A stretch of DNA of 64,000 bases from Phoenix dactylifera (lineage: Eukaryota > Streptophyta > Magnoliopsida > Arecales > Arecaceae), in NCBI RefSeq assembly GCF_009389715.1, contig NC_052393.1:5022001-5086000 (forward strand), in the 5' to 3' direction. Positions 1 through 17,457 of this stretch are shown piece after piece. Each line of letters opens with the position of its first letter. Position 1 is the first letter of the stretch. The notes below the pieces were generated by a model. The model saw only the letters and a list, made by a program, of their open reading frames with translations, had not been told where the DNA came from and made no database searches. A program made the position numbers and the translations under genes.

Positions 1-3000
1 CTCCGATATCCACCCCGGACTCCCTCCTCTTGTCGTGGCAAGATCAACAAGTGTGACAATAAGAGAGCTCAAGTAATTGCCAAAGGAGATGGTGAGCAAT
101 GCAATTGCTGTGCACATGCTCTTCATTGTATCAGGTGCCTGGCCATAGAAGAATTCAAGCTGGGTAATGAGACTGAAGACCTCTGAGCCTGCTATAATAA
201 AATACAGGGGAAGTTGCCATGCGATACTTATATATTCACCAGCCTTGCCCCTCTCCAATCTCCTCGCCTCCACAAATGCTGCTGTTGCCATTGCTAGGAT
301 CATCAAAAACCGGCCAATTCCCATCCTCTGCAGTTGTGAAAGTCCCCTTCCGTTCCCAATGTAGCTTCTAGTTATGGGAACTATGATTTTATTGTAAAAA
401 AGGACCCAAGCCATGATACATATCACTTCAAAAGAACACAAGGATGCAGGAGGGATAGAAATGGACCCGATCTTCGTGTTCATCGCACTGCCTTGTTGGA
501 TGAAAGTGGTATTCATCTGAGAATATGCAGTGCAGTAGAGGATGCCAGTCACCCATATTGGCAGCAGGCGCAGAAGTATCTTCAATTCTTCCACTTGAGT
601 TATTGTACAAAGTTTCCATGAACTTTGAGGATCATTATCTTTTAGGTCTGAATACAAGATAATAGCAGCTTTGTCCAAAAACCTGAGCAGACATCATATA
701 ATTCCTTAAAGAAGACCAATATAATAAATTCTACTACCTTAGAAGAAGACTCAGAGAGACAGTAAGAATCAACTGAGGGAGCAGCTCAGGATTTCATTTA
801 TCCATGACAATGATTTATATAGACGTAGTTTGTGTAAACAATATAAAATTAGAAAGGGAACATATTGGATTCAGCGAAATGATTAGTTGGCATAAAGTCA
901 GTTTAGCCCTTGCTATTGAGTCTTGATATTTTCAGAAGCTTACCAAACAGATAATTTCATAAGCAATCCCTTGAAATAGGAACTGTTCACTTATATATTT
1001 AAAGCCTACATTTGAAAAACATTTCTTGATTTGGAACCTGGAATATGGATTTCCTTGGCTTCATCGTAAAGTTTAATCAAAAAATATTAGTTGTGGCACC
1101 TGTAACTTTAAATTTTATAAAAGTACCTGAATTCTTCAGTATGCATCAATCTCTCTTGTCCCAAATTATCCGAGTTCTTGTCATTCACCTCATGCAATAG
1201 AGTGCAGTCTGTGGGTACTTCCAAGCTCATCTTCCTACAAGAGGCAACCAATACCTGAAAAACACTCTTCAGAGGACTCCCACTTGGCATCCGCAGCCGA
1301 TAAATTGGTGTTCCTAACAAATAGCCTCCAAAGGCCAAAGCTATGCACAATGTTGCAATGCCAAACCCAAGTGCCCAATCTACATTTTCCTGTATATAGA
1401 CTATCAAAGTGCCCGAAGTAAGCAGTCCGAAGGTGATAGTAACATAAAACCAACTGAAGAAAGCACGCTTCTTTTCTCTCTCGACCGGGTTCTCATCACT
1501 GAATTGATCTGCACCAAAAGGAAGCAATGCCGACCTGACTCCTCCACTCCCAAAAGCAATGAGATACAGCCCAGAAAAGAACATGAGATTCTGAGCTCTA
1601 GTTGCTGGCTGACATGAGCTTCCTTCACATGGAGGAGGCTTTAAAGACGGAGCAAAAGCCGAGACAGTGATGGTAATCATCCCCTAGTAATAATTAAAAA
1701 GATCAATGTAGAAGAAAAAAATAATTATTGTCATAATTTATGACAATGGAGAACGTGTTATCACACTAGTATTTTCGGATTGAATGATGAAGGTTCTAAA
1801 GCTCGCAGACCACGAGATATATTGTGAGGGAGATGAGTATTGTCTTGTAATTCCCCCAATATGTATCAGCTATAAGAGCTCCAACCAGTGGTATAAAATA
1901 GCTTGTTCCACTCCAAGTAGCAGCATTTGCAGCATTAGAAGCATTGCTTCCATGGAGGACATTGCGTAGATATACAACTAAGTTTGTAGCGATGCCATTG
2001 AAAGCTGTACTCTCCAAGCATTCAAATCCTAGAAGAACAAGGAAATTTAAGTCATATGCTGTGTACTCAAAAAAGATTGTTTTAGTACAGGAAAAATTAA
2101 GCTTGTACATAACCAACCAAATTAAAAAAAAACAAAACAAAAAAAAAAACCATGAGAATCTCAGTTTGATCTTATGTTTTCCGTTAGTATCAATGTCATA
2201 CCAAACTAGGCCTAGAAAATTCCTGATACCTCCAAAACTAGTTAAAACTCTGAACACTTGCAGCATTTTTGCTCATATTCTGCAAGAACATGCCTTGTAC
2301 CATACAGTGGCCATATTAGTAAATCTTTGAAAGTTATCTTGAACAACCTATATGATATGGGAATAGATTAAACCTCACCCAGAATAATTTTTGGTGCTTT
2401 CCAGTCACTAGGTTTGTCCTGTAACTGAGGCCCTTCACGTACTTCCAGTGATGTGTCATCTTCACAATGCCTTGATGAATAGCTCTGGAAAAAAGACCAG
2501 ATATCAGCAAAAATTATCATGGTTGATAACCCCTCTGCAAACGATTAGTTAAGATTGTAGTGTGATATCTAGGGTACATGCTGAACTGTAATTATGCATA
2601 AGTGTTTTGGCTAATGATGGCTAAGAAATCAGCAGGGCTGGGCATAACTACAAACAACAGAGTCCCAAAACAAACTGAAGACCCAGTTATATCTCAGAGC
2701 CATCCTTTATTTTTTTTCAGGGGCTTCGGCTTGCCAAAGGGCCTTGAAGTAGGGATTCAACAGATCTCCAGCGTTGATGAATTTATAAAGGGATATTACA
2801 GCTGTCAGGTTTATGCACAATCTCACCCATTATAGTATGCACAGTCTTGGATATCATAACCGAAATGCATATTGCATGCACAATCTTGATATATGAGCTC
2901 AAAGCAATCTCCAAGTCAAATTTGAATTTAGTATCTATACTAAATCATAAAATTTTGCTATTTTATTTTACTATATCTGATCCCTAGTATATTTTTCATA

Positions 3001-15439: not shown

Positions 15440-17457
15440 ACGCGCGCATGCGTGCATGTGTGGTGAGGAGTGCAATGGGAGTGCCAAAATTGTCGGAAAG
15501 TAAATCAAAGTTTGATGAAGTATAAATCAGTCTTGATGTATTAATTTAGCATTCATGAATGTGGCTCTAAGTATTTGTAAATGATGTCCCTTACAGTTCT
15601 ATGTAAGTGTTTAATACTTGTGTCTTTTGGGGTATTGTAGTATATTTAGGTAAGGGCGTACAGAGAGTCATAGAGTCTTGCATTCAGTCAGTTTGTAAGT
15701 GGGACAACCAAGTGAGGAATTGTTGTGTTGAGTATCTCCAAATTAGTCCCTTTGTAACCTTGTTTGAGAAATAGAATATTGTTTATTTCTTGTTCTACTT
15801 TCTCTTCTTGAGCTTTCAATTTTTCCCCACATTAAGCAGAGAATACTAAGTGTTTGTAACCTTGTTTGAGAAACAGATCGCTAAGCAGCAGGGCCCCACA
15901 TTAATCAGTCCAAGTCTGTTCTCACAGAAATTTTGTCATCTATCTAAAATTGCATTAATCTCTAAAATAGAAAACATCGTAGAGATTTTATGCCCTTATG
16001 CACCTTGAAACTGAGATGCTTTTCTCCATTCAACAAAAGGGAGTCAAAAGATCACTACTTTGATACAAGAGACTTTGAGCCAGCTGGTTGGCAACCCTTT
16101 CTTCAGTGCATGAGTTGAGGAGAGGTTCTTCTTTCAAACCCATAAGGTGGCAATACCACAGTATTTCTCCAAAAAATAAATAAGAAGAAAAGGATCATCT
16201 CAACCCATGTATCTACTGTTACTTTTTCTGTCAACAAATTTTGCATCTCATACATAAAATCTGATGCTGACGTTCACAATCTATGAACTGTGAAGGCATA
16301 ATTTAATGATTGTGTCGATTGGCAAGGCAAAAACCACGGCAAATTTTGAGTTTGAGTTGGAATCATGCAGGAAAGATGCAACGACATGTCTTGAAATTAG
16401 CTGACTACAATGGATGCTATTTTATTCGAAAGCGAATCAAATTTGAACCTCTAAGAGATATCCCACAGAACACAATTGTCCCTTTTAACTCCTAGTTATT
16501 CTTATACATAATGTTATGCAATAAAGAGCGACAAACTAACTACCCTGGATCGGGTTGGAAGGGTTATGGGGAGGTTTTCAGCGTAGTGTCTGCACTTAGG
16601 ACTTTCGAGCGTAAATTATGTAGAACAATTGTAAGGCTCACAACTTTGTATGAACTGGAATAATGTCAATCAATAAGAGTGACCTAACATATAAGATCAG
16701 TTTCATAATATTTAATTGTTAAGATGGATATCTTGTAAAATGACAATTAATAAGGTAGGAAACAGCACTTTCAAGGAAGCTCAGAAATAGCACTAAAATG
16801 GTTGCTTAAAGGAGTAGGATGGTTTGGATTTGGAAACAATTCAGAATTGGATTTGTACTGATAAAGGGGGAAAAAAAGGATGAAGACCTAATATGACAAG
16901 GATAGAAGTTGGGAGAGAAGGATCATAAAGTCAATCCCCTGTAGTTGGGTTCACGCACTAAATCATTATGCTTATGATACTGAATCGTTGTAGGGAACTG
17001 CAATTCCAGGCAGCAAGATGCAAGAAAATAAACAATGAAATAATGTTGACTGAGAACTTTTCCAACTCCACTATGATCATAATTACTACGTTTTACTTGG
17101 GCGAAACCTCCAGTTGCCTCTTTGCAGGCGGCCCTGTAAATTTAAATTCAGCAGTTCCATCACAATAAACAATTAACCAAAATTTACAACAGAGTCTTAT
17201 GATGATCCAGTTTCTGCCACCAACAAGGAATGCTAAATCCCATCCAAATCCAAATAAAAACAAATCTGTCCACATGAAATTCAGACAAACAATTTCAGAC
17301 ATATATTGAGAACTAATTCTAATAAGAAATTTTGGAGAAGCAAAAATCAGAGATTTTTGAGAGAAAAAAAGCCAATGATTGCAAACAGAGATGATCGTGC
17401 CTTATTAGAAAGCAGAGGCCTTGCTTCTCCTTTCTCCACAGAATCCTCGTGCTCCAT
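12541..17457 (-). CDS. NPF (NRT1/PTR, POT family) transporter, copy C, complete, GC-AG first intron
   Basis: Complete five-exon gene of 578 codons. Exons on the minus strand: 17401-17457 (MEHEDSVEKGEARPLLSNK), 14945-15050, 14523-14740, 13809-14353 and 12541-13351. The donor of intron 1 is AAG|GCACG, i.e. GC instead of the GT found in copies A and B; the phase only works with this GC donor. Family features: SNWTGTSYS, FGSGGVKS with the helix-4 Lys, FGADQFDDE, HTNEFRFLDKAA, FIQQGTVMDTR, WQLPQLFIQAGSDVF, LEFFYGQAP and NKGHLDYYF. The helix-1 motif reads NFLDS, with no Glu and no basic residue. Intron 4 shares sequence with copy B intron 4 (for example near 13583 and 7231), so B and C look like the most recent duplicates. 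Intron 1 is 2.35 kb and carries a CT/GT microsatellite. Substrate is unknown. Confidence 0.85.
15372..15438. repeat. compound (CT)n(GT)n microsatellite
   Basis: Uninterrupted CT repeats pass directly into GT repeats inside intron 1 of NPF copy C. This is a likely polymorphic marker. Confidence 0.95.
15489..15832 (+). mobile_element. possible short solo LTR (Copia-like)
   Basis: A roughly 340-base stretch starts TGTCGGAAAG and ends TTCCCCACA. It has the AT-rich body and CTTTCTCTTCTTGAGC-like tail typical of short Copia LTRs. A second, partial echo of its TTTGTAACCTTGTTTGAGAAA segment follows near 15853. No target duplication is visible, so the call is tentative. Confidence 0.3.

Follow-up and report, generated by a model that had tools for sequence, protein, structure and literature searches.

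Among the published NPF groups, the one closest to the transporters described here appears to be NPF7a. Longo et al. 2018 (PMC6288477) surveyed 2383 NPFs of 42 plants and report the complete ExxER/K motif in 62% of them. Their NPF7a comprises 41 proteins from seven plants, all monocots; its motif logo reads ECLES, the full ExxER/K occurs in 0 of 41 members and the TMH4-TMH10 charge pair in 39 of 41. According to the same paper, NPF7 members of the ECLES type contain either one Glu or two at this site, and R/K is missing. In durum wheat, 11 NPF7 proteins have been reported with an ExxES variant described as monocot-specific. NPF7 proper (AtNPF7.2/7.3), which has lost ExxER/K as well, is characterized by the motif QGLAT and by the presence of the TMH4-TMH10 pair in 0 of 181 proteins, and NPF8 retains the full motif in 221 of 282 proteins (78%), with 61 lacking it. 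The passive nitrate excretion transporters of NPF2a/NAXT have also lost the motif, which reads LLGLS/T; their genes are clustered and some of them are reported to be passive (all from PMC6288477). Further facts for comparison were taken from PMC10665861, PMC12780319, PMC4176842, PMC11265797, PMC13056971 and PMC5826914.

Published reports on motif-less NPF7 proteins, PMC6288477 among them, disagree. Longo et al. placed rice OsNPF7.2 in NPF7a and called it not pH dependent (PMC6288477). The paper dealing with OsNPF7.2 itself describes a tonoplast low-affinity nitrate transporter of weak pH sensitivity, below that of AtNPF6.3; compared with water-injected oocytes, 15N-nitrate was increased by 67% at pH 5.5 and by 32% at pH 7.5, and no efflux is reported there as detected (PMC5078692). 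These two figures support the description of OsNPF7.2 as not pH dependent only partly. Some other NPF7 proteins devoid of ExxER/K have been reported as electrogenic and proton-coupled.

The locus examined here lies at the start of the window, that is, the whole analysed DNA stretch of 64,000 nucleotides. Its minus strand bears three five-exon NPF/POT genes arranged head to tail, whose models we assembled by hand using splice sites and homology. Copy A (1..5421, minus strand) consists of exons 5421-5365, 2484-2379, 2028-1811, 1683-1127 and 682-1, the last one being cut by window base 1, so that 540 amino acids are seen. Copy B (6194..9926, minus strand; exons 9926-9870, 8713-8608, 8358-8141, 7955-7402 and 7001-6194) encodes 580 amino acids and copy C (12541..17457, minus strand; exons 17457-17401, 15050-14945, 14740-14523, 14353-13809 and 13351-12541) encodes 578. 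All three match Pfam family PTR2/POT (PF00854) over the transporter core, with E values of 2.3e-96 (A), 1.4e-97 (B) and 5.1e-93 (C), and are thus members of the POT/PTR2 (NPF) family. Copy C, the only one searched in this way, matched the solved AtNPF6.3 in HMMER with E 2.7e-103.

Internal stops are absent from B, from C and from the visible part of A. The sequence-only reading had taken the proteins, apart from their motifs, to be intact; this holds for the reading frames, with the qualification that the end of copy A lies beyond the window start and that intron 1 of copy C begins, in our gene model, with GC instead of GT (17399..17400, minus strand), while intron 1 of A and of B starts with GT. 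Two alternatives were inspected by eye, namely the nearest GT further downstream and a single ATG immediately preceding exon 2, and neither yields the frame. The GC donor could lower splicing of copy C. A fourth NPF copy (D; 19496..21014, minus strand) is a pseudogene, in which pieces resembling exons 4 and 5, at 24-50% identity, are interrupted by stops and frameshifts. One open piece of it matches PTR2 weakly (E 0.0069, 15.8 bits, cut-off 27), and neither exons 1-3, which would include TM1, nor some 60-70 residues around TM10 were found at the locus. Both copy D and the GC donor are features absent from the sequence-only reading. Intron 1 of copy A holds two copies of a repeat (window 4079-4566), in which a 113-base block is 86% alike and an adjoining 95-base block 76% alike, at a distance of 288-289 bases.

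The residues of TM1 were located in a MAFFT alignment of five sequences (A, B, C, AtNPF6.3 and NPF2.10). At positions corresponding to E41, E44 and R45 of AtNPF6.3, copy A has E/E/S, copy B V/D/S and copy C N/D/S, and none of the copies carries the canonical ExxE[K/R] of proton-coupled NPFs. Counted from exon starts, the motifs are ECLES at 2009..2023 (GAA TGC TTG GAG AGT), VCLDS at 8339..8353 (GTC TGT TTA GAT AGT) and NFLDS at 14721..14735 (AAT TTC TTA GAC AGT), all on the minus strand. The HMMER alignment likewise places N-F-L-D-S of copy C opposite E41-A-V-E44-R45 of AtNPF6.3. Residues, labels and coordinates given in the sequence-only reading are correct. Could the motif changes have been produced by an assembly or sequencing error? 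Such an origin is extremely improbable: the exon around every motif is intact, positions 41 and 44 are encoded by different codons in the three copies, and ECLES itself is the consensus of a published subfamily (PMC6288477).

Copy A carries exactly the motif that is usual in NPF7a. Like NPF7a, the array lacks K/R at the fifth position and keeps the TMH4-TMH10 pair; unlike it, B and C have no first Glu, and Asp occupies both their fourth position and their TM10 site; Ser is retained together with a single TM1 acid, to which the NPF7a members with one Glu only, mentioned in PMC6288477, can be compared. From motif and charge pair in the case of A, and from the pair and kinship with A in the case of B and C, we infer that all three are of NPF7a type. 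NPF2a/NAXT resembles the array in motif loss and clustering and differs in motif, since A, B and C each retain one acid or more; NPF7 proper shares the loss of ExxER/K, whereas the array keeps both partners of the charge pair. Placement in NPF8, whose members NPF8.1-8.5 had been proposed as the set for comparison, is not favoured, given that the ECLES logo belongs to NPF7a and that 78% of NPF8 keep the full motif; as a set for comparison, NPF7a comes first. The idea of a clade of carriers with altered motif and mechanism has already been published for NPF7a, together with the ECLES logo (PMC6288477). What is new are the additional changes in B and C, beyond Ser; loss of Arg itself has been described. 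A text search of the literature for the motif peptides of A, and another for those of B and C and for 'ExxDS', returned no NPF paper, which is weak evidence as alignments are mostly placed in figures and supplements. A pattern scan of genome contigs with copy B gave 10 pattern matches, none of them a relative.

Next, we examined the remaining parts of the proton network. In the MAFFT alignment, the charge pair of TMH4 (K164) and TMH10 (E476) is R/E in A and K/D in both B and C, so that opposite charges, as in NPF7a, are present in all three copies, and the TM10 proton site E476 is Glu in A and Asp in B and C. Between the same copies the TM7 stretch YSQMN of A has changed to CVQLF in both B and C. 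In the MAFFT alignment, read by eye and numbered by hand, the column of GTR1 Tyr381 on TM7 is Tyr in A, B and C. Out of 102 columns common to AtNPF6.3, NPF2.10 and copy A, 10 are changed in B and 12 in C, and each of the two changed sets includes E41, E44 and E476 (three of three; P about 0.0007 for B and 0.0013 for C, values that are not independent as B and C are sisters and that refer to two reference proteins only). Of the nine acidic residues shared, B and C preserve six, the remaining three being exactly E41, E44 and E476, and all seven shared basic residues are unchanged. These shared losses, together with the changed TM7, suggest further uncoupling with an altered pocket.

Selection on the three genes was estimated from pairwise and branch comparisons. 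Pairwise dN/dS is 0.24 (A-B), 0.29 (A-C) and 0.27 (B-C), at dS of 0.78, 0.73 and 0.55, respectively. On the three branches (535 common codons), dN/dS amounts to 0.26 (0.19-0.36) for A, 0.20 (0.13-0.30) for B and 0.34 (0.22-0.55) for C, the upper figures being upper 95% bounds. The expectation that the ratio would be below 1 is thus borne out on every branch. In neutral simulations with substitutions only, 2000 runs each for B and C, every run produced at least three stops (median 13 for B and 12 for C), while the real genes, at branch dS of 0.30 and 0.25, contain none. Low branch dN/dS and absence of stops in B and C argue for conserved carriers with an altered motif, as the sequence-only reading had maintained, and make decay unlikely for A and B, less firmly for C.

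These results also bear on the idea that B and/or C are losing transport, either as non-transporting sensors or in early decay, with the motif drifting. Position 41 indeed differs between the two (V in B, N in C); copy C combines the GC donor with a W31 to S change and the highest branch dN/dS (0.34, upper bound 0.55); and the neighbouring copy D is a pseudogene. Purifying selection may also fit a non-transporting sensor. On the other side stand the missing stops, compared with at least three in all 2000 neutral runs for each gene, and the TM1 region itself (alignment columns 49-80), where dN/dS between B and C is 0.11, though calculated from just 5 nonsynonymous and 10 synonymous differences. 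On balance, we regard loss of transport as improbable.

B and C group as sisters with an ultrafast bootstrap of 92 (491 columns, outgroups AtNPF6.3 and NPF2.10). Their introns 1, 3 and 4 match each other, introns of A match neither B nor C, and intron 2 matches in no pair. Recent gene conversion among the copies was considered and rejected, as no near-identical tract appeared in 45-codon steps, the top B-C value being 0.87. This grouping allows us to propose an order of changes. Since the Ser codon at position 45 is AGT in all three copies and Ser is the state of the subfamily, the change from Arg of ExxER to Ser probably, and most simply, predates the array and would have taken place before the copies diverged, as across published NPF7a. 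With ECLES taken as ancestral, E44D, E476D and the loss of E41 would have occurred once copy A had split off. The second TM1 Glu and the TM10 Glu (E476 of AtNPF6.3, E513 of GTR1) would have turned to Asp in the common ancestor of B and C, E44D being common to both copies, and the first TM1 Glu would have disappeared in favour of Val in B and Asn in C. This last step may have passed through Asp, since GTC and AAT are each one base away from an Asp codon. The stepwise loss claimed before would, on this reading, apply within the array to E41, E44 and E476 and hardly to Arg. Exons 1-3 of copy D were not found, so the ancestral motif cannot be told from it.

Taken together, we propose, with a probability of roughly 60%, that the locus is a tandem array of NPF7a-type carriers in which proton coupling is weak in A and weaker still in B and C. 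Copy A, with both Glu kept, is predicted to act like rice OsNPF7.2, as a low-affinity carrier of nitrate (or small peptides), probably on the vacuole membrane and weakly driven by the pH gradient. B and C, which retain one TM1 acid, the TM4-TM10 charge pair and the TM7 Tyr (partner of E513 in GTR1), would be less coupled to protons, close to facilitated diffusion, with a changed TM7 pocket. In PepT2 simulations, the motif Arg was reported to have a role in connecting the binding of substrate with the protonation of Glu; weaker coupling where Arg is replaced by Ser would be in line with this. Several points weigh against this proposal. Motif and charge pair are the basis of the assignment to NPF7a, whose logo is absent from B and C. 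OsNPF7.2 uptake is still greater at pH 5.5 than at pH 7.5. Copy C might be spliced less efficiently from its GC donor. The GTR1 mutants E75Q, E78Q and K79A are reported to lose uptake almost completely, so that B and C may be without activity or may carry a different substrate.

Loss of the motif need not equal uncoupling either, given that some NPF7 proteins without ExxER/K have been reported as proton-coupled. B and C could still be coupled through Asp44 and the TM10 Asp476 with the TM7 Tyr, the motif change merely shifting affinity or pH optimum. Both acids are indeed kept as Asp, the Tyr381 column is conserved (by eye) in all copies, and for GTR1 the TM10 Glu (E513) has been proposed, with uptake data, as a probable second protonation site pairing with Tyr381. 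Against retained coupling speak the weak pH sensitivity of OsNPF7.2 (PMC5078692) and the behaviour of the three GTR1 mutants. We consider this explanation rather unlikely, and prefer that of carriers with weakened coupling.

As to the membrane on which these weakly coupled carriers would reside, first exons of all three genes encode an EX3LL sequence (ERTPLL, ETRPLL and EARPLL). A motif of the form [D/E]X3-5L[L/I] has been proposed for tonoplast sorting (discussed in PMC5078692). OsNPF7.2, compared here by its published description, likewise has an acidic-dileucine N-terminus, of EX6LL rather than EX3LL type. Because shuffling of the N-termini yields [DE]X3-5L[LI] in 18-36% of cases and mutation of EX6LL in OsNPF7.2 left oocyte uptake unaffected (PMC5078692), EX3LL is just a hint that A, B and C may be targeted to the tonoplast.

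A bolder and quite tentative extension, which we hold to be doubtful, is that in the B/C sub-lineage the network of E41, E44 and E476 and the facing TM7 were rebuilt together, yielding a true facilitator or exchanger. How a symporter of the POT type can go on transporting after loss of proton coupling is still debated, and three adjacent, conserved copies with differing remnants of the proton network offer a ready comparison. If coupling is graded as proposed, A, B and C would constitute a natural graded series for testing the uncoupling of a POT symporter. The surprise is limited by the fact that a monocot subfamily without Arg has already been published.

Elsewhere in the window, the plus strand contains a possible plastid chaperonin-60 beta gene (44623-50859). 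A piece from the ORF at 50500-50859 matches Cpn60_TCP1 weakly and does not reach the cut-off (E 0.0013, 18 of 34.3 bits), and a further candidate part of this gene, the ORF at 44623-44955, matched no family. On the minus strand, a match to PF03106 (E 1.5e-14) marks an exon of a WRKY transcription factor at 61942-62679, and the sole tRNA found in the window is a tRNA-Gly (gcc) at 33445-33515, also on the minus strand.
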